From: Pseudobdellovibrionaceae bacterium
GTDB lineage: Bacteria; Bdellovibrionota; Bdellovibrionia; Bdellovibrionales; UBA1609
Assembly (NCBI GenBank): GCA_030591685.1
Contig: JAUVAX010000004.1
Span: forward strand, 1-40,229
Direction: 5' to 3'
Length of the DNA stretch: 40,229 nt
This document shows, piece by piece, positions 2,313-25,944 of this stretch. The position numbers were made by a program, and so were the translations under genes. Position 1 is the stretch's first letter; each line of letters begins with the position of its first letter. The notes beneath the pieces are model-generated. The model was not told where the DNA came from. It saw only the letters and a program-made list of their open reading frames with translations, and did not search any database.

Positions 2313-3107
2313 ATGAAGACAACCCCTGTCAAAATTGCCAATATAACTATTGGTGGCCCCGAGTTTACGGTTATTGCCGGGCCCTGCTCTGTGGAGTCTC
2401 AGGAGCAGTTCTCCTCCACAGGCCTTGCGGTTAAAAAAAGTGGTGCCAGCCTTTTAAGGGGCGGGATTTTTAAGCTTCGTACACGGCCTGAGTCCTTTCA
2501 AGGGCTTGGATCCAGTGCTTTTAGCATGGCAAAGGAAATTAAAAGTCAGCTTGGCATGGGCTTTATTAGCGAAGTCACTGACCCCAGGCAAATTGGAGAT
2601 CTTGATGATGTTGTGGATGCCTTTCAGGTGGGCTCTAGAAACATGCACAACTATGAGCTGTTAAAAGAACTCGGCAAAACAGATAAGCCCATTGTTTTAA
2701 AAAGAGGCCTTTCAGGGCTGATTAAAGAGTGGCTCCATGCTGCTGAATATATTTTAAGTCAGGGAAACGAACAAATAGTTCTCTGCGAGCGCGGCATTCG
2801 CACCTTTGAAACCGCCACTAGAAACACCTTTGATCTCAACGCTGTTGCTTACATTAAAGAGAACACCCCCTTTCCGATCATTGCAGACCCCTCTCATGCC
2901 ACTGGTAAATCTAGCTTTGTTACACCACTGTCCTTAGCGGCTGCCGCTGCAGGGGCTGATGGATTAATGATCGAAGTGCACCCAAACCCTGCTGACGCCA
3001 AGTCGGACGGGCCTCAATCTCTTAATTTTAATGAGTTTAATTTATTAATGACTCAACTTGAAAGAGTCTTAGAAAGCCTCGATCGAAAGCTTGGTAAACT
3101 CATATGA
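2313..3107 (+). CDS. aroF: DAHP synthase, type I-beta (first shikimate step)
   Basis: Condenses phosphoenolpyruvate with erythrose 4-phosphate to 3-deoxy-arabino-heptulosonate 7-phosphate. It has 264 residues and consists of the (beta/alpha)8 barrel only. Family motifs in order are IAGPCSVES (about 21-29), GGIFKLRTRPESFQGLG, VGSRNMHNYELL, LKRGLSGLIKEWLHAAEYI, LCERGIRTFE, ADPSHATGK and GADGLMIEVHPNP. No ACT, ferredoxin-like or chorismate mutase domain is attached, so I infer it lacks the feedback control such domains provide. The ATG follows GAGGT at 2304-2308. The gene end overlaps the ubiE start (ATGA), making a two-gene operon of the first step of chorismate synthesis and a late step of menaquinone synthesis. 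KDO8P synthase was considered but the motifs fit DAHP synthase. Confidence 0.92.
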   Translation: MKTTPVKIANITIGGPEFTVIAGPCSVESQEQFSSTGLAVKKSGASLLRGGIFKLRTRPESFQGLGSSAFSMAKEIKSQLGMGFISEVTDPRQIGDLDDVVDAFQVGSRNMHNYELLKELGKTDKPIVLKRGLSGLIKEWLHAAEYILSQGNEQIVLCERGIRTFETATRNTFDLNAVAYIKENTPFPIIADPSHATGKSSFVTPLSLAAAAAGADGLMIEVHPNPADAKSDGPQSLNFNEFNLLMTQLERVLESLDRKLGKLI

Positions 3108-4521: not shown

Positions 4522-5565
4522 TCAAGTACCCGTACACCTGCTTAGACGGTCTTTGAGGGTAAAATCAGCGAGAACAAGCCAGGTCATGGCCTCTAAAACA
4601 CTTATAGCTCTTGGTACTATACAGGGGTCATGGCGCCCTTTTTTGGCAACGTCTAAAACACTCGAAGTGGGCTTAAAGCTCACGCGCATTTGTAGGGTCT
4701 CACCGGTGGTGATGCCCCCACGAATGCCCCCGTAATTGCTGGCCTCACCGGAGTGAAACTCCGTGCCCTCAGCTTTGACAGCATCAAACCCTTGGCCCAA
4801 ATCTACACCATTTGTTGCACCAATGCTTAAGTAGGCTTGCGCTAAAACTGCTTTAATTTTATTAAACACTGGCTCACCTAAATTACTCGGCGGGTTTTTA
4901 ATAATTACCTGAGCGAGCCCCCCATAACTTTGCCCCTGAGCCTTTGCTTTTAACAGTAACTCTTCCACCTGCTTTGACTTATCTTTTATGGGGATGCGGA
5001 CAAGAGAGTTATAAATATCAGAAGGGGTCGCTTTATCAACGATACTCTCGACTTCTTTTTGAGATAATTTCAACTCACCCACCTGCGAGCAAAAACTTAA
5101 AACCGATATGTCGGGGTAAAGCTGTTTGACCATCATTTTTGCAACCGACCCAGCCATAACTCTCGAAACGGTCTCACGGCCTGAAGAGCGACCTCCCCCG
5201 CGGTAATCAGTGTGCAGGTATTTGCTCAACCAAACATCATCAGCATGGCCAGGGCGTGGGCTTTTTTTAATTTCATTATAATCTTCAGAGCGTTGGTCTT
5301 TGTTGTTTACAATAATCGCAATGGGTGTACCTAATGTTTTGCCCTCAAACACACCACTTAGTACCTGGGGGCTGTCGGGCTCGTTTCGCCCCGAGACGAC
5401 TTCACTTTGACCCGGTCGCCTTTGGCGTAAGTCCTTTTCAAGAAGGCTTATGTCAAAATTCACCCCACTGGGGCATCCGTCAATGACGGCCCCTAAAGAG
5501 GGGCCGTGGCTCTCACCAAAAGTCATAACACTGAATAAATCACCAAATACGTTGTTCATACTCAT
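4522..5565 (-). CDS. aroC: Chorismate synthase
   Basis: Catalyses the last shikimate step, EPSP to chorismate, using reduced FMN. It has 347 residues. Signatures are MTFGESHGPSLGAVIDGCPSG (about 14-34), RQRRPGQSEVVSGR, SPRPGHADDVWLSKY, DYRGGGRSSGRETVSRVMAG, GVDLGQGF and GGIRGGITTGE near the C-terminus. The start ATG at 5565 follows AAGGCGG; a second ATG two codons later is also possible. It is monocistronic, divergent from leuS across a 165-nt gap. It completes the set aroF, aroB, aroA, aroKDE and aroC found in this window. Confidence 0.95.
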   Translation of the reverse strand: MSMNNVFGDLFSVMTFGESHGPSLGAVIDGCPSGVNFDISLLEKDLRQRRPGQSEVVSGRNEPDSPQVLSGVFEGKTLGTPIAIIVNNKDQRSEDYNEIKKSPRPGHADDVWLSKYLHTDYRGGGRSSGRETVSRVMAGSVAKMMVKQLYPDISVLSFCSQVGELKLSQKEVESIVDKATPSDIYNSLVRIPIKDKSKQVEELLLKAKAQGQSYGGLAQVIIKNPPSNLGEPVFNKIKAVLAQAYLSIGATNGVDLGQGFDAVKAEGTEFHSGEASNYGGIRGGITTGETLQMRVSFKPTSSVLDVAKKGRHDPCIVPRAISVLEAMTWLVLADFTLKDRLSRCTGT

Positions 5566-13860: not shown

Positions 13861-14328
13861 TTAAGGGTTTTTTATAAAAGAGCTCTTGCATGATTCTGAA
13901 TAAATCCCTGGGAGTTTTTTAAACGGGCTATTACTTTCTGACTGATAAGAATCCTGAACCTTTTTATCATCACAAGAGAGCGCCTCTAGATTAATTAGAC
14001 AGGCCTGGGAGTCCTCAGCATTCACTCTTAGCTCTCCCATATCCTCTGCATTGACCACATCAGACAAATACCTATAGTCAGAGGTCTTTAACCCAAATGC
14101 TGGAGTTAGCTTCTTAATCGTAAATATAGAGCTCATGCACTCAGCGGTACTTAAGTTAAGATGACAACGACTTAACTTAATGCAAGTATTTGAAGCCACT
14201 TGAGCTGAGAAGAGCCTCGGTTGACCATCCTGGTTACTATTATCGGTAGCAGCACTTGGGTTGCCAGTGTCTGTGCCACAGCCTGACAGAGCGAACATAA
14301 GTATAGTAAAAAAATAAAATCTACTCAC
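13861..14328 (-). CDS. Cys-rich lipoprotein coupled to a TIGR02147 regulator
   Basis: It has 155 residues, signal peptide with lipobox LSGC and lipidated Cys 17, followed by GTDTGNP, an opening I associate with lipoproteins of Bdellovibrio relatives. The mature domain has six further Cys spaced CIKLSRC, AEC, ACL, LSC and ESC, which would fit three disulfides, and no known catalytic motif. The start overlaps the end of the upstream regulator gene by 8 nt, so the two are made together. TIGR02147 genes commonly sit beside exported proteins, suggesting the regulator and lipoprotein act as a unit. Function unknown. Confidence 0.7.
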   Translation of the reverse strand: MSRFYFFTILMFALSGCGTDTGNPSAATDNSNQDGQPRLFSAQVASNTCIKLSRCHLNLSTAECMSSIFTIKKLTPAFGLKTSDYRYLSDVVNAEDMGELRVNAEDSQACLINLEALSCDDKKVQDSYQSESNSPFKKLPGIYSESCKSSFIKNP

Positions 14329-15196
14329 TGGCCCCCCTCTCTTTTTTTGCCGCGAGCTGACCGGCTAGAGGGAATAGCTGAAAGTTTAACTGATAAACAA
14401 CAGTTGCGTCTTTTGAGTCATCAGTAATAGATAGAATTTCATTTCTAAATTCTTTCATAAGGGTTTTAATTTTTTCTACAGTTTCCCTTGAACATGATAT
14501 GCATGTACCTGAAATCTCTCTATCCATATGGTGAATATCATCTATAGAGTCTTTTGCTTTACTAATCATGTCCTTGTGGTATTGAGAAATGAGCGTTGAC
14601 ACCACGCTATCTCCTGGTCGAACATTTTTATAGGTTTGCTTGAGAAGACCCTCTTTATCTCTAAAAATAAACCCGATGCTTATTAGATCCCGTAAGGCCT
14701 GCTCGACTTCACTTGGGCTTACAGCATGGTCAAACTGTTCAGAAATCCAACCAGAATCTTCTTGAAAGTCCTTTGTCGCAACTAACTCACGAAGCGGTAT
14801 ATAGTACCACCTAGCATAGTACTTCATTTCAGTTTGCCTAATAGGATGTATTTTTTTAAAGGTTCTAGATTTTAAAATTCGTTTAGCATTTAGCGTTTTT
14901 TCAGTGGCGTTTTTTGATTGACAAAACTGAACCAAATTTTTAAAAAACTCAGACTCTAGTTTCTCTAATTTTAAGGCTTCACTAAACCTCTCTATGCTTT
15001 CGTCTGATATGTTTCGCTTTCCCTCAATAACAAGTTTCAAAAAATTAGGCGATGCAAAACCCGCTCTTCTTGAAAAGTATCGATATGAGAAATAATTCGT
15101 TGTACCTTTATAGTATTCATACAGGTCCCCTAAGAACACTCGATAATCATCGTATTCAAAAATACTGGGTTTAGTTAAATCGAACTTAAGGGCCAT
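14321..15196 (-). CDS. TIGR02147 family (DUF4423) regulator-like protein
   Basis: It has 291 residues, a full-length member. The N-terminal part has the family opening (IFEYDDYRVFLGDLY, FSYRYFSRRAGFASPNFLK, IEGKRNISDESIERF), which is helix-turn-helix-like and probably binds DNA. The C-terminal DUF4423 part ends with DREISGTCISCSRETVEKIK and VVYQLNFQLFPL, where family members carry a conserved DREISG...LN/QLFPL core. A CISC pair in this core is unusual for the members I recall and could be a redox or metal site (inference). No Shine-Dalgarno precedes the ATG. It forms an operon with the Cys-rich lipoprotein. A regulatory role is inferred from the family and is not experimentally clear. Confidence 0.85.
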   Translation of the reverse strand: MALKFDLTKPSIFEYDDYRVFLGDLYEYYKGTTNYFSYRYFSRRAGFASPNFLKLVIEGKRNISDESIERFSEALKLEKLESEFFKNLVQFCQSKNATEKTLNAKRILKSRTFKKIHPIRQTEMKYYARWYYIPLRELVATKDFQEDSGWISEQFDHAVSPSEVEQALRDLISIGFIFRDKEGLLKQTYKNVRPGDSVVSTLISQYHKDMISKAKDSIDDIHHMDREISGTCISCSRETVEKIKTLMKEFRNEILSITDDSKDATVVYQLNFQLFPLAGQLAAKKERGASE

Positions 15197-17500: not shown

Positions 17501-18309
17501 ATGGATCTATATAGCTTTAGTAATTACAAAGAGTTCACCTTAAAGTGGATTAAATCTCAGCCTAAAAAGGGCTATGGGCAGCTCCGAAAACTAGCACAAC
17601 ACTTAGACATTAATGCCGTAATTGTCACTCAGGTCTTCAACGGCCCCCGTAACCTGTCTGTTGAGCAGGCCTTTGATGCCACATCATTTTTTGGCCTCAA
17701 TGAGTTAGAGTCCGATTACTACTTACTACTCGTTCAACATGAAAGGGCCGGCAATTATCGCCTGCAAGATAATTTTGCAAAAAAAATTAAGGAGCTAAAA
17801 ACTAAAGCTACTAAAATAAAGTCTCGACTCCCCAAAAATAAGCAAGAGCTCTCGTTTGAAACAAAGGCCCTTTTTTACTCTGACTGGTTCTATAGTGGCA
17901 TTCGATTGATAACAGCAATTGATGGTTTTAACTCCCCTGAGGCCATTGCAAATTATTTTTACCTACCTGTAAGAAAAGTTCGAGAGGTTTTAGATTTTTT
18001 AACTGAAAACAACCTCTGTATTGAGAAAAAAACAAATACTCCATCTTAAACAACTCAACGCATGTTGATGCAAGGTCGCCTCTTGTTTCAAGGCACCATA
18101 AAAATTGGCGACAAAAATCTTCAGAAAAATCAGAGGCCCAAGATCAAAATGACTTATTTTTTACAGGCCCCATGGTCATCGACCAAAAAACTATGGAGGA
18201 TATTAAAGCTAACATATTGTTGCTCATCCAAGAATCTACAAAAAAATCCTCCAAAGCCCCTTGTCAAATGTTGGCTTGCTTAAATATAGATTTTTTTAGC
18301 GTAAAATAA
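17501..18309 (+). pseudogene. TIGR02147 family gene interrupted by a frameshift in an A7 run
   Basis: The first frame (17501-18049) encodes 182 residues of the family: SNYKEFTLKWIKSQ, a helix-turn-helix region with FNGPRNLSVEQAF, and FYSDWFYSGIRL. It then stops. The other frame (from about 18025 to the TAA at 18307-18309) encodes the missing C-terminus: STHVDARSPLVSRHHKNWRQ, LFFTGPMVIDQKTMEDIK and CQMLACLNIDFFSVK, the hallmark DUF4423 ending. The frames meet at seven A residues (18026-18032). Eight A would restore one ORF of about 269 codons, normal for the family. It could be a true pseudogene, transcriptional slippage on the A-run, or a sequencing error. The ATG frame at 18062-18283 is a third, non-coding frame. 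Confidence 0.85.
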
Positions 18310-18440: not shown

Positions 18441-20234
18441 CTAAAACGAATTAAGTTTTAAGTAGTACTCTTGTTGGGCTGTGGCTTGGGTTTCAAACAT
18501 TTTAAGGCCTGAGGTGTAATGAGCCTTTGTTTTTTGGGCGTACTCTATCCCAGGTGAGTCGGCTGTATAATTGAGGTCAATGACCTTACTTGGGCGCCAG
18601 TTCTCAGGGGGCCAGTGACAGCCGCTCATTTGAGATCGCCCTATGGCCCAAATAATTATATCGGGGCTAAACGTGGGGGCGTTTTGTGCACCACCTCTTA
18701 ATTGCCCCGTTCGGGCCGAATAGGCGCACGCTTGTGGTAGCTCCCCTAAAATAGCGGACAAAGTACCCCCGCCACCCCAAACCGCCACAGAGCGACCCTT
18801 CGCTCCTGAGAGCAAAACCTTAAGCCCCTCTACATCTGTGTTTGTAGCAAAGCTACCAGTCCTTGTAAATACAGCGGTGTTTACTGACTTTAACTTTTTA
18901 CTCACAGGTGTTAAGCCACATCCGGCCTCTGATAAAAGGTCGTACATTTTATTTTTTAAAGGCGAGGTGACGGCTAAAAAACTTAAACCCATTTCTTTTA
19001 ATTCGCTTAAGAGATCAATACTTAATTCGTCCTTTGCACACTGAATGGCAACAACAGAAGTATCGCGATTTTCAAAAAATATTTTATGCTCAATAGGAGT
19101 ACGACTGTGAAAAATAGGGTCCCCAATCACGGCACCAAAAGAAAAGTGATTGGGTTTAAAGTTAATAATATCAAAAAATGTGGGCTGATCTAAAGCTGAG
19201 CCTTGACCCTCGCGCATGTAATTTAAGGGCATTTTCATAGAGAATATTTTACGATACCAATTAAAGCGCCCCTCTTGACTGCGGGGGAGAAAACTTCGAC
19301 TCTCCCTCTCTTTAAACCACCATTTGTGCCAAAAAAGCAACGAACTTAAGTTCTCTAAAAGTAACGAGAGCTTTATTTGAAACCCCTTTTTCTCAAACCG
19401 CTCTAATTTTTTAATTAACTGCTCCGGGGTCAGATCGTCAAGCTTATGAAGGGACAAGAAACCCTTTTTCTTAAAAGGCGGCTCTCCTAGCTCAAGGGCC
19501 CAGTCATATTTATAACCCTGTTTATTAATTAACTCGCATAAAAATGAGTTTTCTTTTCGCACACTAAGCAGCACACTCTCTTTTGGTATTTTTTTAAGGC
19601 AGTCTTCTATTTGCCCCCTAGTGAGTAAGTCATCGCGCAGCTCAAAATATTTTATATTTAAATCTAAGTACACCTTAAAGCGGTCAAAGTTTTTACTTTT
19701 TAACATTTCAGGCAACACAGTTATACTAAAGCTGGCATCGGTGTGTGTTTTTTTAAGCCCTAAATTATAAATCAACAGTGGGGCAAAGTTGTAATCGCTC
19801 TCAGGTAATGTGATTTGAAGGTCTGAGGTGTTCTTATACCTTAACTCTCTTTCGTTAAAACGAGACTGGTACTCCTCTAGGGCTGAGACGTTTGGGTTCA
19901 AGCGGGGTCTGTTTAAAAATATTCGACCCATTTTATCTGTCGGCCTTCTTACCCAAATAACAATAAAGTCGTCAGGTATTTCAGTCTGAAACCCAGCACC
20001 ACAAGATATTATTATGTTTTCACGGCCCACCGCCAAGCCGTGAAAGGCCTCGCTTTCTAGTTTTCTAAACTCTGCCTCTCCTGAGTTTAGAAAAATGTCT
20101 TCTATTTTTATATTATTTATGCTTTCAATTTCAGCGTCTAAGTCAAAACAAGTAAAACCTTCAAGTTCACTTTTTAATTGATTTACAAGAGTTGTTTTAC
20201 CCACCCCCCTATGGCCAATCAAAGCTAGTTTCAT
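18441..20234 (-). CDS. Trifunctional shikimate kinase / type I dehydroquinase-like / shikimate dehydrogenase fusion
   Basis: It has 597 residues in three domains. (1) Shikimate kinase, about 1-160: P-loop GHRGVGKTT 7-15, FDLD 30-33, FRKLE 56-60, SCGAG in place of the usual GGG, lid NRPRL, R...RY later. (2) A divergent type I dehydroquinase, about 168-356: ELR 198-200, R226, H263 (SLHK), Schiff-base Lys candidate K288 (QIKLSLL), SALDQ 346-350 for the usual SAPGQ; the Glu of the usual FRxxxEGG is not in its normal place. (3) Shikimate dehydrogenase, about 364-597: GDPIFHSRTP 371-380, catalytic K427 (TSPLKNK), SVNT, NTD with D467, GGGG 487-490, FETQATAQ. Together they convert dehydroquinate to shikimate 3-phosphate. 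The ATG overlaps the aroA stop (ATGA). Confidence 0.88.
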   Translation of the reverse strand: MKLALIGHRGVGKTTLVNQLKSELEGFTCFDLDAEIESINNIKIEDIFLNSGEAEFRKLESEAFHGLAVGRENIIISCGAGFQTEIPDDFIVIWVRRPTDKMGRIFLNRPRLNPNVSALEEYQSRFNERELRYKNTSDLQITLPESDYNFAPLLIYNLGLKKTHTDASFSITVLPEMLKSKNFDRFKVYLDLNIKYFELRDDLLTRGQIEDCLKKIPKESVLLSVRKENSFLCELINKQGYKYDWALELGEPPFKKKGFLSLHKLDDLTPEQLIKKLERFEKKGFQIKLSLLLENLSSLLFWHKWWFKERESRSFLPRSQEGRFNWYRKIFSMKMPLNYMREGQGSALDQPTFFDIINFKPNHFSFGAVIGDPIFHSRTPIEHKIFFENRDTSVVAIQCAKDELSIDLLSELKEMGLSFLAVTSPLKNKMYDLLSEAGCGLTPVSKKLKSVNTAVFTRTGSFATNTDVEGLKVLLSGAKGRSVAVWGGGGTLSAILGELPQACAYSARTGQLRGGAQNAPTFSPDIIIWAIGRSQMSGCHWPPENWRPSKVIDLNYTADSPGIEYAQKTKAHYTSGLKMFETQATAQQEYYLKLNSF

Positions 20235-21427
20235 ACACTAACACCAATGGATTGGAAAAACTCAGGGAAGCTTTTGTTAACCACCTCAGGGTCCACGAGA
20301 TCAATTCGAACTCCGCCAGTCATTAGTAACCCCGCCGCCATCGCTAGGCGGTGATCCTCATCAGGGTCAAATTTAAAAGTATCTGTTGAAAATTGCGTGG
20401 GGCCTTGGATTTCCATACCGTCGTCTAAAATTTTGATATTAGCCCCTGCTAGCCTGAGAAGTTCTGCTGTTTTTTTTATTCGATCCGACTCTTTATGTTT
20501 TAAATGAGCGGCCCCGTAAAGGCGACTTCTGCCATGAGCAAAACAACAAAGACTCGCTAGCACTGGGAACAAATCTGGTGAGTCATTTAAATCCACCTCA
20601 ACGGCCTTAAGTTCGCCTGATTTTTTAACAGTTAACTTTTGACTTGAGGTACTCACACCTACCCCCATCCTTGTTAAAATATTAACAAACACACTGTCGG
20701 GCTGTAGGCTTTTTTCAGGGATGCCTAGTAAAATAGCCTCACCAGAAATGGCCGCCACACTCGCCACTGCAAAAGCACTACTCATATCGGGCTCAATAGA
20801 GATTTTATGAGTATTGATCTGCTGCTTAGGGGGGACATATATTTCATTTTCTCGCCAAGTCAAATTCATACCCAGCTGTTTTAATAGCTTTACAGTCATT
20901 TTCAAATAAGACTTAGAGTTTAAATCAGCAGGCAATGACATATAAATTTCAAAGGGCAAACTCCATGCACTTAAAAGTACGCCCGAGGCAAATTGACTAG
21001 AAACATTAGAGGTCAAGTGCAGGGCATCGCCCATAAGGTGCCAACCATCTGTTTTAATAATGAGCCGGTCCTCTTTAAGTTCACAAATAGACCCCAACTG
21101 CCCCAGAACTGTAATTAATGGCCCCTGGGGCCTAGAAAAAAGTCGACGACTGCCCTTAAGAACAAACACGCCCTTTTCTTTAGCCAAACGAGGGGCTAAG
21201 AACCTTAGTACCGTCCCTGCGTGGCCACAGTCAAATTCAGCCTCCAACAAAGGGGCTCCCTGAGCTTTTTTAAAATTTAAACCTTTAACGTTTTTTTCCA
21301 TTAAAACAACATCGTCACACTGGGACTTACCGTCGACCTCTAACTCAGGAAAGTGGCTTTGAACAATCAAAGCCCTGTTCATTAACGACTTACTTGCCGG
21401 AAGACGTCCCATAAAAGAAAAACTCAT
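20231..21427 (-). CDS. aroA: EPSP synthase
   Basis: 3-phosphoshikimate 1-carboxyvinyltransferase, adding the enolpyruvyl group from PEP. It has 398 residues from the ATG at 21427. A GTG at 21439 would add four residues but lacks support, and the chosen ATG gives an ATGA overlap with aroB, the same joint seen at the other end with aroKDE. Motifs in order: LPASKSLMNRALI, CDDVVLM, CGHAGTVLRFLAP (family GNAGTA.R), SRRLFSRPQGPL, VSSQFASGVLLSA, EPDMSSAFAVA, DSPDLFPVLASL, LKHKESDRI and DEDHRLAMAAGLL. Catalytic Asp (DSPD) and Glu (KESD) are present. GHAG instead of GNAG is a minor variant in the PEP-binding loop. Confidence 0.95.
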   Translation of the reverse strand: MSFSFMGRLPASKSLMNRALIVQSHFPELEVDGKSQCDDVVLMEKNVKGLNFKKAQGAPLLEAEFDCGHAGTVLRFLAPRLAKEKGVFVLKGSRRLFSRPQGPLITVLGQLGSICELKEDRLIIKTDGWHLMGDALHLTSNVSSQFASGVLLSAWSLPFEIYMSLPADLNSKSYLKMTVKLLKQLGMNLTWRENEIYVPPKQQINTHKISIEPDMSSAFAVASVAAISGEAILLGIPEKSLQPDSVFVNILTRMGVGVSTSSQKLTVKKSGELKAVEVDLNDSPDLFPVLASLCCFAHGRSRLYGAAHLKHKESDRIKKTAELLRLAGANIKILDDGMEIQGPTQFSTDTFKFDPDEDHRLAMAAGLLMTGGVRIDLVDPEVVNKSFPEFFQSIGVSV

Positions 21428-22476
21428 TTTTTGACCCACTTTGTTTTTTGAGCCGCCGCCAATATTGACTTAAAGCTCACTGGCTTCACCAACACTTGCC
21501 CAGGCGATTTTAACAAAACAAAATTGACCCTTGTTTTAGAGGTCACTTTTTTGTCCGTCTTTATAATTTTTAAAAACTCTGCCGCAGGCATTTTAGATTT
21601 ACCCATAAATGTTAAATTAAATTTAGAGCTCATAAAGTCGACTATGTTTTTATAACTTTTTTGACTGAGCACCCCTTCGCGATTAGACACCTCAAGAGCC
21701 ACCATTAACCCCTGCATAACGGCCTCACCGTGGGGGCAGCGATAATAACTTTCAATGACATGCCCTACTGTGTGCCCTAAATTTAAAACCTCACGGAGGC
21801 CTTTTAGCTCATAGGGGTCCTTTAAAACAACTTTATATTTAATATCTATGGCCTGTGGTAAGAACTTCCACAGTTGCTTTTCACCAGACAATGAACTTTT
21901 ACTTACCGCCTCAAATAATTTTTTATTTAACAAACAATATTTAGAAAACTCACCCATAGCCGATTGGGCTAATGCTTTGGGCTGAGTCTGTAATAAGCTT
22001 TTAACAATAAATACTTTTTTTGCTGGATAAAAAGTACCCACCTGATTTTTATGTCCGGTTAGGTTTAATGCACTTTTACCGCCGTGAGCAGAGTCTAAAG
22101 CCGCCAGCCATGTCGAGGGGATATGTATTAACCCAACGCCTCTTTTATAAATGCTTGCTAAAAACCCCGCAAAGTCACCTGTGCTACCTCCACCAATGGC
22201 GACAAAACAAATATTCTTTCTTGAGACTGGTGGTAGTAACTTTGAAATTTTACAAAGCTCAGCCTCGGCCGAAGAAAATGACTTTAAACCCTCGCCCGCT
22301 TTTAATTTAATTGTAAATTCATACCTTTTAAGCCATGTATTAAAAAACTCGTGTTTGTTTAAAACAGAATCATACAATAATACTGGGGTTTTAAAGCCTG
22401 TGAGTTTTAGTAGGTCACTTTTAGAGGGTAATTTGTTTTTATACTCAACTTGAGATGAAAAATGAACTAAAGCCAT
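21424..22476 (-). CDS. aroB: 3-dehydroquinate synthase
   Basis: Cyclises DAHP to 3-dehydroquinate using NAD and a divalent metal. It has 350 residues. Motifs: AIGGGSTGDFAGFLASIYKRG (NAD-binding), HIPSTWLAALDSAHGGKSAL (family P.T.LA..DS..GGK), HKNQVGTFYPAK, and metal ligands in NLGHTVGHVIE and PHGEAVMQG. It starts 7 nt after the dppC stop, with AAGGTAA as a weak ribosome site, so it appears to belong to the dpp transcript. The following aroA start overlaps its stop. HGEA preceded by RCP is ordinary. Its family membership is clear despite overall divergence. Confidence 0.95.
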   Translation of the reverse strand: MALVHFSSQVEYKNKLPSKSDLLKLTGFKTPVLLYDSVLNKHEFFNTWLKRYEFTIKLKAGEGLKSFSSAEAELCKISKLLPPVSRKNICFVAIGGGSTGDFAGFLASIYKRGVGLIHIPSTWLAALDSAHGGKSALNLTGHKNQVGTFYPAKKVFIVKSLLQTQPKALAQSAMGEFSKYCLLNKKLFEAVSKSSLSGEKQLWKFLPQAIDIKYKVVLKDPYELKGLREVLNLGHTVGHVIESYYRCPHGEAVMQGLMVALEVSNREGVLSQKSYKNIVDFMSSKFNLTFMGKSKMPAAEFLKIIKTDKKVTSKTRVNFVLLKSPGQVLVKPVSFKSILAAAQKTKWVKK

Positions 22477-22483
22477 AAAATTT

Positions 22484-23338
22484 TTACCTTAGCTTTGGAT
22501 CTAATATATCCCTCAACCCATCGCCTAATATATTAAACGTTAACACAGCAATTAGTATACACACGCCAGGCATTGTAACAAGCCAGGGCGCGGTTTCTAT
22601 ATAAGACCGAGCATCGGCAAGCATGGTCCCCCACTCAGAGGTGGGCGCCTGGGCCCCAAGGCCTAAAAACCCCAGTGCTGCAATATTTAATATACCGTCA
22701 CTAAACCCCAGGGTGGCCTGTACAATAATGGGGGCTGCAACGTTTGGTAAAATATTAATAAACACTTGTCTTAAGTGACTGGCCCCAAAGTTTTGGCCGG
22801 CGACGACATAAAGAGCATGTTTTTCAGCCATAACACTCGCCCTAACAATTCTAATAAATGCAGGCAATGCCATAACACTCACCGCAATCACCCCGTTTAT
22901 TAGACTTGGGCCTAATATTGAAACAATCACAATAGCTAACAAAATACTCGGCATGGACATTAATACGTCCACTATACGCATTATTAATGAGTCCACCCAG
23001 CCCCCTGCATAGCCAGAGATCACCCCCAAAACAAGCCCAACACTTAAAGCTAAAATAACAACAAGCGCCCCTACCCCTAAAGACACACGAGCCCCGTAAA
23101 TAAGCCGAGATAATTGATCTCGACCTAAATCGTCAGTGCCTAGTAAAAATTTAAACTCACCGCCGTCTAACCAAAAAGGTGGGAGTTTTAATTGCCCATC
23201 AAAAATTTGTGTTGGGTCAAAAGGCGCAATAAATGGAGCAAAGAGGGCAAAAAAACATAATACACCCAGAAGGGCTAAACTAATTTTAGCGCCAGTGTTT
23301 CGTTTTAATTTTTTTAAGAACTCTTTATACTGGGTCAT
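22484..23338 (-). CDS. dppC: Peptide ABC transporter permease, DppC/OppC type
   Basis: Inner-membrane permease of a di/oligopeptide importer. It has 284 residues with an N-terminal transmembrane segment (ISLALLGVLCFFALFAPFIA), the OppC N-terminal region FDPTQIFDG.., GTDDLGRDQLSRLIYGARVSL, then the permease core with five helices and the cytoplasmic loop ALPAFIRIVRASVMAEK...YVVAGQNFGAS that contacts the ATPase. The end NILGDGLRDILDPKLR is the classic DppC C-terminus. It lies 3 nt from dppB and 7 nt from aroB. The ATPase subunits (DppD/DppF) are not in this window. Confidence 0.93.
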   Translation of the reverse strand: MTQYKEFLKKLKRNTGAKISLALLGVLCFFALFAPFIAPFDPTQIFDGQLKLPPFWLDGGEFKFLLGTDDLGRDQLSRLIYGARVSLGVGALVVILALSVGLVLGVISGYAGGWVDSLIMRIVDVLMSMPSILLAIVIVSILGPSLINGVIAVSVMALPAFIRIVRASVMAEKHALYVVAGQNFGASHLRQVFINILPNVAAPIIVQATLGFSDGILNIAALGFLGLGAQAPTSEWGTMLADARSYIETAPWLVTMPGVCILIAVLTFNILGDGLRDILDPKLR

Positions 23339-23341
23339 TAA

Positions 23342-24352
23342 CTATGAGTCCCTCAACTTTGGGTCAATCCATACATATAATAAATCAACAATCATGTTCA
23401 CAAAAATAACTACAAAGGCAATCAACATGACCCCACCCTGAATCACCGGGTAATCCCTAGAGGTTACAGAGGCCACAATCCAGCGCCCTATACCCGGCCA
23501 GGCAAAAATAGTTTCAGTTAAAATAGCACCGGTTAAAATAGTCCCAAACATTAAACCAATCACGGTAACAACGGGTATTAATGCGTTTCTAAAAGCATGC
23601 TTAATCACAATGGTGTAAAAGCTTAAACCCTTAGCCTTAGCCGTTCTAATGTAATCTTTTTTTAAAACCTCTAATAAACCAGATCTTGTCATTCGAGCAA
23701 TGGCCGCCATGGGGATGGTCCCCAATACAACCGAGGGCAAAATGAGGTGTTTCAGCGAACTCACAAAAGCCCCCCACCCTTCAGGGCTTTTTAAACTATC
23801 AATCAACATAAAGCCCGTAACAGGGTCCACATCAAAAAAAGGGCTAATTCGACCAGAGACAGGGGTCCACCCTAGGCCCACTGAAAAAACCAATATAAGC
23901 ATTAAGCCCCACCAAAAAATAGGCATTGAATAACCCACAAGAGCCCCACTCATAAGAAAATAGTCAAAAAATGTTTTTCTTTTAATTGCCGCAACAACAC
24001 CCAATGGGATGCCTATGATAATAGACCAAAACATAGCTAAAAACCCAAGTTCAACAGTGGCCGGAAAGCGGCTTATAAACTCATCAAAAACAGGTTTTTT
24101 AGAAACTATCGACACCCCAAAGTCACCCTTTGCAGCATTAGATAAAAAATAAAAATACTGCTCTATAACGGGCTTATCGAGACCTAATTTTTGTTGAATA
24201 TCAATATACATTTCTTTTGAAACACCCCGTTCACCAAGTAAGAGCAAAATAGGGTCACCAGGCACTAAGCGAATTAATGAAAAAGCTAATATGGACACCC
24301 CAATAAGAGTTGGGATGGCTATTAGAATTCTTTGCGCCACTATTTTAAACAC
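23342..24352 (-). CDS. dppB: Peptide ABC transporter permease, DppB/OppB type
   Basis: It has 336 residues, partner permease of DppC. The first membrane helix ILIAIPTLIGVSILAFSLIR and the RLVPGDPILLLLG segment are OppB/DppB signatures. The conserved loop RDYIRTAKAKGLSFYTIVIKHA and GILxxE-like LTGAILTETIFAWPGIGRW follow. The end SRDYPVIQGGVMLIAFVVIF...YVWIDPKLR is typical. It starts with GTG 2 nt after the dppA stop, so it depends on translational coupling. Confidence 0.94.
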   Translation of the reverse strand: MFKIVAQRILIAIPTLIGVSILAFSLIRLVPGDPILLLLGERGVSKEMYIDIQQKLGLDKPVIEQYFYFLSNAAKGDFGVSIVSKKPVFDEFISRFPATVELGFLAMFWSIIIGIPLGVVAAIKRKTFFDYFLMSGALVGYSMPIFWWGLMLILVFSVGLGWTPVSGRISPFFDVDPVTGFMLIDSLKSPEGWGAFVSSLKHLILPSVVLGTIPMAAIARMTRSGLLEVLKKDYIRTAKAKGLSFYTIVIKHAFRNALIPVVTVIGLMFGTILTGAILTETIFAWPGIGRWIVASVTSRDYPVIQGGVMLIAFVVIFVNMIVDLLYVWIDPKLRDS

Positions 24353-24354
24353 TT

Positions 24355-25944
24355 TTATTTAAACTCTATGGGGTAAAAGTTCTCTGTCCCCAGAGGCGAT
24401 TGTATATAACCATATACATTGCTTCTCATCGCCTTAAAAGTAATAGAGTGGGCAATGGGTACCCAAGGCAACTCCCTTTTAAAAATGACCTGAAGCTCTT
24501 TGTAAATTTTAGATCTTTGACCCACGTTAGAGACCTGCTTTGCTTTTATAATTAAAGCTGAAAATTTATTATTACACCATCTGGCTGCATTAGAGCCTGG
24601 CTCAACAGCGGCACAAGAGAGCAGAACACCTAAAAAATTATCGGGGTCACCATTGTCGCCCGTCCAACCCAACTGAACTAAATCATGCTCACCTTTATTG
24701 ATTTTAGCTAAATATGTAGGCCAATCATAAGTTACAAGGTTTACCTTTATACCCACTCTTGCTAAATCTGACTGCATGAGTTCGCCCATTTTTTTACCAT
24801 TAGGGTTGTAGGGCCTCGTTATTGGCAAAGTCCAAAGCGTTGTTTCAAAGCCCTTTGGGTAGCCGGCTTTTTTAAGCAAAGCTTTTGCTTTTTTTATATT
24901 ATACTCATACTTTCGTAAACCCGAATGATACCCCCAAATAACCGGAGGCAGTGGGCTTTCAGCAACACTCGCATAACCAAGATATATGGCCTCTATATAG
25001 GACTTTCTATTAAGGGCATGGTAAATGGCCCTTCTCACAAGTAGTTTTTTAAATGGTATTTTTTGTGTGTTAAAGGCCAAATAGCCCACATTCATACCTG
25101 GTCTTTGTAGCAACTTAATTTTTTTATGAGCCCTCATGCCCTCTAAATCAGTGGGCGACGTTTGGCCTACAAAATGACATTCACCTGTTTTTAGCTTTTG
25201 AAACCTCACGTTGGCGTCTGGGGTGATTGCAAAAACCAATTTTTTAATTTTAGATGGACCTTCAAAATAGTTTTTATGACTTTCATAGCGAACAAGGGTG
25301 TCTTTAATATACCTTTTAAAAACAAAAGGCCCCGTCCCTATAGGCTCGTTATCAATTTTGTCTTTAGAGCCGGAAGCCTCTAACTGATCGGCGTATTCTT
25401 TAGAGAGTATGCTAGCAAAATCCATGGCAAGGTTAGCAATAAAAGGGGCTTCCTTTCTAGATAAAATAAACTTAACAGTGTAGTTATCGACCTTAATTAT
25501 ATCTTTAATTATTTTGTCCATCTCCATGGACTTAAAGTATTCATAAGTCCCACCACTAACTAAATGATAAGGGTGCGCCTCATCCCGTTGACGATTAAAG
25601 GTAAATAAAACATCATCTGCATTAAACTCCCTTGAAGGGGTAAAGTCTTTTGTTTGGTGAAACTTCACCCCACGGCGCAAGTAAAAGGAGTACTCTAAAC
25701 CATCATCAGAAATATCCCAGCTTTCAGCTAAAGAGGGCTTAACCTCAGTGGTGCCGGGCTTAAAGGCGATAAGACGGTTGTAAATAGGCTGTGAGCTGGC
25801 GTTAAAAGTAGCTCCATCGGTGGCCAGTTGAGGGTTAAATATACTAGGGCTTCCCTCAGCACAAAAAACAAAGGTCCCCTTGTTTTTTGCAGGGGTGCAG
25901 GCGGCCAAAACACAAAGAGTAATAATCCCAAAAAAATACTTCAA
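24355..25944 (-). CDS. dppA: Peptide-binding lipoprotein, DppA/OppA (SBP family 5)
   Basis: It has 529 residues, the extracytoplasmic solute-binding protein that captures peptides for DppBC. The start is TTG at 25944, with AAGGAG 7 nt upstream. The N-terminus MKYFFGIITLCVLAAC is a lipoprotein signal, lipobox LAAC. Family 5 marks: FNPQLATDG, LAESWDISDDGLEYSFYLRRGVKFH, FNADDVLFTFNRQ, GTGPFVFKRY, RRAIYHALNRK, QSDLARVGIKV and the C-terminal PWVPIAHS. First gene of an apparent six-gene operon that continues into aroB. A predatory or peptide-scavenging lifestyle would fit, but this is inference. Confidence 0.94.
   Translation of the reverse strand: MKYFFGIITLCVLAACTPAKNKGTFVFCAEGSPSIFNPQLATDGATFNASSQPIYNRLIAFKPGTTEVKPSLAESWDISDDGLEYSFYLRRGVKFHQTKDFTPSREFNADDVLFTFNRQRDEAHPYHLVSGGTYEYFKSMEMDKIIKDIIKVDNYTVKFILSRKEAPFIANLAMDFASILSKEYADQLEASGSKDKIDNEPIGTGPFVFKRYIKDTLVRYESHKNYFEGPSKIKKLVFAITPDANVRFQKLKTGECHFVGQTSPTDLEGMRAHKKIKLLQRPGMNVGYLAFNTQKIPFKKLLVRRAIYHALNRKSYIEAIYLGYASVAESPLPPVIWGYHSGLRKYEYNIKKAKALLKKAGYPKGFETTLWTLPITRPYNPNGKKMGELMQSDLARVGIKVNLVTYDWPTYLAKINKGEHDLVQLGWTGDNGDPDNFLGVLLSCAAVEPGSNAARWCNNKFSALIIKAKQVSNVGQRSKIYKELQVIFKRELPWVPIAHSITFKAMRSNVYGYIQSPLGTENFYPIEFK

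Follow-up and report, generated by a model that had tools for sequence, protein, structure and literature searches.

A shikimate operon of Bdellovibrionales in AROM order, with trifunctional and tetrafunctional relatives

Bacteria are usually described with single-domain shikimate enzymes. In the window studied here, a stretch of 40,229 nucleotides from a Pseudobdellovibrionaceae bacterium (GenBank assembly GCA_030591685.1, contig JAUVAX010000004.1, positions 1 to 40,229), the initial annotation reported genes that follow one another as the domains of the eukaryotic pentafunctional enzyme AROM do, that is, N-DHQS-EPSPS-SK-DHQD-SD-C (PMC6851490). It left three accounts side by side, a convergent order, a remnant of the ancestral gene cluster, or kinship with the donor of AROM. 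How, then, did the same order come about in both?

Three genes and five domains

The open reading frame list gives, on the minus strand from 22476 to 18441, aroB, then aroA, then one three-domain gene. These genes, their domains and the related features of the window, with the pathway steps predicted for them, are as follows.

21424..22476, minus strand: aroB, 3-dehydroquinate synthase, step 2; 350 aa; PF01761/PF24621; TIGR01357 6.6e-68
20231..21427, minus strand: aroA, EPSP synthase, step 6; 398 aa; PF00275 1e-62; TIGR01356 1.5e-76
18441..20234, minus strand: trifunctional shikimate kinase - type I dehydroquinase - shikimate dehydrogenase, steps 5, 3 and 4; 597 aa
19785..20234, minus strand: shikimate kinase domain, residues 1-150; PF01202 1e-15
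19167..19745, minus strand: divergent compact type I dehydroquinase domain, residues 164-356; assigned by residues, profile and fold
18441..19151, minus strand: shikimate dehydrogenase domain, residues 362-597; PF08501 8e-07
22484..25944, minus strand: oppA-oppB-oppC peptide transporter genes (Pfam), directly upstream with a 7-nt gap to aroB
2313..3107, plus strand: DAHP synthase, step 1; TIGR01361 342.6 bits, above cut-off; outside the operon
4522..5565, minus strand: aroC, chorismate synthase, step 7; NCBIfam PRK05382 350.8 bits, above cut-off; outside the operon

Pfam, NCBIfam and the structural model together give the order DHQS-EPSPS-SK-DHQD-SD, identical to that of AROM, and the colinearity first reported is confirmed on three ORFs; the five domains of the window do not lie on one polypeptide. 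Both of the 4-nt ATGA overlaps described earlier can be read in the DNA, as '...aaaaATGAgt...' at the aroB/aroA junction and as '...gtATGAaa...' at the junction of aroA with the fusion gene. The start codon of AroA is the ATG at 21427, not the GTG upstream of it. Promoter and terminator scans of the locus returned signals at chance level only, and these were left unused.

The residues expected of working enzymes are in place. In AroB, E176, K179, H235, H249, K134 and D128, which make up the metal ligands and the active site, are at least 95% conserved among 41 relatives, and in AroA K13, R75, R99, Q145, D285, E313, R316, R360 and K385 are conserved in a set of the same size. That the third protein carries shikimate kinase, a type I dehydroquinase-like domain and shikimate dehydrogenase in a single chain was borne out by Pfam and NCBIfam for the two outer domains and by the modelled fold for the middle one. 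The kinase matched PF01202 (SKI) at residues 9-142 with 58.6 bits against a cut-off of 22.1. Its Walker A motif reads GHRGVGKT (G7-K13), and G7-K13, D33, R57, G79-G81 and R129 are invariant or nearly so in 44 fusions; the modelled domain aligned with known shikimate kinases at Z 18-19. The dehydrogenase matched PF08501 (SDH N-domain) at residues 369-453 with 29.6 bits against a cut-off of 27. K427, N452, D467, Y556 and Q583 are invariant in the 44 fusions, K427 and D467 being the catalytic Lys/Asp, and the modelled domain aligned with 5dzs at Z 21.7.

The enzymes are identified by family membership, conserved active sites and a complementary distribution of type II dehydroquinase (see below), and their activities are predicted. 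AroB would produce dehydroquinate, from which the middle, C-terminal and N-terminal domains of the triple protein would make dehydroshikimate, shikimate and shikimate-3-phosphate in turn (steps 3, 4 and 5); AroA would then yield EPSP, and AroC (4522-5565) chorismate. With DAHP synthase and chorismate synthase included, all seven shikimate steps fall within the window. The most likely effect of the ATGA overlaps, through coupled translation, and of the fusion would be to hold the five activities in a fixed ratio.

The oppA-oppB-oppC genes are probably on the same transcript as the aroB operon. Peptide-transporter genes (oppABC or oppA alone) often precede the operon in the window's family. In about 14 relatives the distance from aroB to oppC, or to oppA alone, is no more than about 75 nt, so that the genes for peptide uptake may be transcribed together with those for aromatic synthesis. 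Downstream of the operon are two genes for DUF4423-type proteins, at 14321-15196 (minus) and 17501-18049 (plus), the second scoring below the Pfam cut-off.

The middle domain as a divergent type I dehydroquinase

The middle domain, about residues 165-356, has no significant Pfam match of its own, and PF01487, the type I dehydroquinase model, matched nothing in the window's genome at E values up to 10. Against the middle domain of 22 relatives, the best PF01487 match reached an E value of 0.0012. The domain does not pass the Pfam cut-off, which is a threshold set in curation and not a property of the biology. Could the domain be a degenerate dehydroquinase that serves as a structural linker only, step 3 being performed by another enzyme? 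The missing PF01487 match would fit such a linker, and there is a precedent in Candida albicans AROM (Aro1), where the dehydroquinase domain is inactive though fused (PMC9074039); a fused domain thus need not work. However, the Schiff-base lysine K288 and the catalytic histidine H263 are invariant in all 44 fusions, in which E198, R200, R226, D244 and Q350 are also conserved. We therefore consider the linker explanation very improbable.

Profile and structure point in the same direction. The best PDB match of the middle-domain profile was the type I dehydroquinase 2ocz (E 4e-4), with the stretches around the His and the Lys aligned. The predicted structure, with a mean pLDDT of 93-94, shows an eight-stranded barrel, the (beta/alpha)8 fold of type I dehydroquinases. 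The best 9 Foldseek matches and the best 31 VIA matches of the modelled domain were all dehydroquinases, and it superposed on 2egz with Z 14.8 and 3.2 Å over 182 residues. The domain is compact; judged by sequence comparison, the segment from the second to the fifth strand appears shorter than in AROM.

A third line of evidence is the distribution of the alternative enzyme. Type II dehydroquinase was detected in 4 of the 141 genomes of the order, all four without the triple fusion (Fisher p 4.5e-5, in a test that ignores shared ancestry). It was found in family f7, which is without the fusion, and no type II enzyme was found alongside a fusion, which also argues against a linker. On the conserved residues and profile, the predicted fold and this distribution, we assign the middle domain to type I dehydroquinase. 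It adds a far-diverged family of that enzyme, which the Pfam and NCBIfam models miss. Four nearly complete genomes (G030, G007, G043 and G038) have neither a detected triple fusion nor a type II dehydroquinase and may belong to aromatic auxotrophs.

Spread of the operon and further fusion among relatives

The triple-fusion profile was matched by 130 of 141 genomes and 59 of 66 genera of the window's order. Since G041 and G047 matched it in single domains only, about 128 of the 141 genomes carry the fusion. Elsewhere in the phylum the triple fusion is present in families f16, f17 and f26; in the large family f18 the kinase and dehydrogenase genes are separate. In the order and phylum together, aroB, aroA and the fusion gene are contiguous in 53 of 69 triple-fusion loci, with aroA fused in frame in 9, and the colinearity is thus no local accident. 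Among the non-contiguous loci, several are truncated where the contig ends, and others show rearrangement or have no adjoining aroA or aroB. The exact 4-nt overlap occurs at 15 of about 35 aroB/aroA junctions and at 24 of about 35 aroA/fusion junctions, and it is the commonest spacing at both. No triple fusion was found on the viral contigs searched, nor in 297 genomes of a Desulfuromonadales bacterium's phylum, a set that had no positive control. A search of the open-access literature, to which subscription papers were external, yielded no description of the arrangement.

Several loci depart from the common pattern. In two members of family f7, of the same order (L071 in G047 and L072 in G052), the operon is absent; in its stead they have separate SK-AroB genes, a type II dehydroquinase and an EPSP synthase that belongs to a different class, which would fit either replacement of the operon or a lineage that never acquired it. 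In L101 and L102 of family f17, the SK-DHQase-SDH gene directly follows AroB, without aroA between them. Two fusions are unusually long, L065 with 886 aa and L063 with 697 aa, owing to insertions between or inside domains. Six otherwise full-length fusion matches (G138, G103, G100, G080, G096 and G213) contain single in-frame stop codons, for which sequencing error, a pseudogene or a split gene are possible causes.

The proposal that small indels would suffice to give one chain was supported by relatives that have joined AroA to the fusion. EPSPS-SK-DHQase-SDH is encoded in one ORF, equivalent to AROM minus its first domain, on three separate branches: in family f10 (L059, L062, L068, L106, L107 and, cut by a contig end, L108), in one genus of family f8 (L104 and L105) and in family f17 (L096 and L097). 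Apart from those whose open frame extends far upstream, these tetrafunctional proteins are about 980-1140 aa long. The linker from EPSPS to the kinase ranges from a few residues to about a dozen. aroB precedes the gene as a separate gene. Parsimony on a tree of the three shared domains gives three aroA fusion events, a count to be read as an estimate since the tree was a quick one with long branches. These three sub-lineages would represent one step beyond the operon of the window, with AroA fused to the triple protein. Among the relatives examined, neither a five-domain protein nor an AroB fused in frame was seen. A 1366-aa open frame in G246 was considered as a pentafunctional fusion and rejected; its AroB lies in another frame, leaving a tetrafusion.

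Most of a bacterial order thus uses a trifunctional shikimate protein, and three branches use a tetrafunctional one, in AROM order. Is the match more than chance? The order could be pure coincidence, the product of random rearrangement that reached one of 120 orders for no functional reason, an explanation that overlaps with that of independent origin. Bacterial aro clusters occur in other orders, such as AroB-AroA-SDH/SK in L180, and one match among many is to be expected. Against this, although only in part, stand the conservation across families and the repeated fusion of aroA, which indicate that the arrangement is kept once formed. Conservation and repeated fusion explain the upkeep of the AROM order, not its choice, and we regard coincidence as a serious possibility that falls somewhat short of probable. 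Two findings bear on it in opposite ways: AROM groups with unrelated bacterial enzymes, as coincidence would have it, and the order extends well beyond this one genome.

Relation to AROM and to other known systems

One fixed order among 120 for five genes is by itself not strong evidence of kinship. Shared descent would mean that one ancestral cluster, or a transfer of AROM from this lineage, brought the five domains together before their later full fusion in eukaryotes, and in its favor are the identical five-domain order and the tetrafunctional intermediates in bacteria. In the gene trees, AROM was represented by the fungal sequences of PDB 6hqv, 7u5s, 5swv and 1dqs, all from ascomycetes. 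The search bait was a sequence of Aspergillus AROM, its DHQS part being identical to PDB 1dqs. A scan of about 85,000 genomes, in which the query began with the DHQ synthase of AROM, yielded 80 bacterial AroB loci spread over many phyla. As these were picked by likeness to AROM, the sample is biased to the neighbors of AROM, which qualifies the AroB verdict given below. None of the 80 loci has the AROM gene order. AroB is accompanied by a kinase gene alone in 55 of them, and the kinase is fused to AroB in three; a kinase adjoining AroB is the usual bacterial arrangement.

A quick AroB tree and its AU test were set aside because the constrained search beat the free search, which had fallen short of the optimum, and a careful tree on fewer rows was used. 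In that tree the enzymes of the operon fall into a single clade (100/100). AROM groups with ordinary AroB enzymes of bacteria, next to a sequence from Acidobacteria (97/87). The AU test rejected a clade of AROM and operon enzymes, weakly, at p=0.041. In the EPSPS trees the operon enzymes form their own clade and AROM sides with the E. coli type; in the SDH tree AROM groups with ordinary AroE, apart from the operon enzymes. AROM thus never falls inside the operon clade in the free trees. The AU tests on EPSPS (0.55 and 0.30), SDH (0.58) and the concatenation (0.19) did not reject the joint grouping, which leaves room for shared descent. This grouping is a permissive one, given an unrooted tree and the long branches of the operon enzymes, and it also takes in a basal position of AROM among the remaining bacteria. 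Of the trees proposed at the outset, that of AroB hence speaks against a link, and those of EPSPS and SDH neither support nor reject it.

Sequence scores and geometry also stand against shared descent. AROM EPSPS reached about 235 bits against the E. coli enzyme and 256 against one from a plant, and the window's AroA scored 86 to AROM. For the dehydrogenase part, the general NCBIfam AroE model (70 bits) scored above Shik-DH-AROM (30 bits). The profile comparison of the dehydroquinase domain with AROM was weak, the first strands alone being aligned, and the interdomain geometry of the model is unlike that of AROM. Shared descent is accordingly unlikely in our judgment. It is just as improbable that the operon lineage and AROM had an ancient cluster in common, with the trifunctional and tetrafunctional proteins as preserved stages toward the eukaryotic enzyme. 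The suggestions of a relic cluster or a relative of the AROM donor fared poorly against three trees that place AROM among ordinary bacterial enzymes. A very deep link with AROM is unsupported, although the AU tests outside AroB leave the joint grouping standing, and we infer rather than observe the absence of common descent.

Convergence, among the options first listed, is the one supported by the position of AROM outside the operon clade in the AroB, EPSPS and SDH trees. Very probably, the locus is a working shikimate operon for steps 2-6, made of three translationally coupled genes, whose AROM order is independent of eukaryotic AROM. Independent, stepwise evolution of that order in bacteria is the best reading, and the trifunctional and tetrafunctional proteins are most likely convergent with AROM. 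If the origin was independent, these proteins would be a natural replay of AROM assembly with the intermediates still alive, and the question of why DHQS-EPSPS-SK-DHQD-SD, an order unlike that of the pathway, arose twice would become testable.

How does the operon compare with known systems? AROM/Aro1 of fungi and protists (PDB 6hqv and 7u5s) has the same five enzymes in the same order, and AROM was the top Foldseek match of the modelled triple protein, with about 16-19% identity in the structural alignment. Whereas AROM is one chain, the operon encodes three polypeptides, and its relatives fuse at most four domains with AroB always separate. The DHQase-SDH pair of the predicted model superposed on AROM only at 18.5 Å, the domain packing of the model differs, and the enzymes occupy separate positions in the gene trees. 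As cited in PMC9074039, C. thermophilum AROM gave no throughput gain over its isolated domains (Veraszto et al. 2020), and this, together with the inactive C. albicans dehydroquinase domain, leaves no ground for a claim of channelling. Bacterial SK-AroB gene pairs and fusions link shikimate genes likewise, with different partners and order. On the bifunctional DHQ-SDH of Arabidopsis (2gpt/6bmb) the model superposed at 3.6 Å over 407 residues. In the plant enzyme and in bacterial DHQase-SDH proteins (ORFs in L236, L242 and L250), type I dehydroquinase is N-terminal to SDH, as it is here; unlike them, the triple protein has a shikimate kinase preceding the pair in the chain and a dehydroquinase that is shorter and far diverged.
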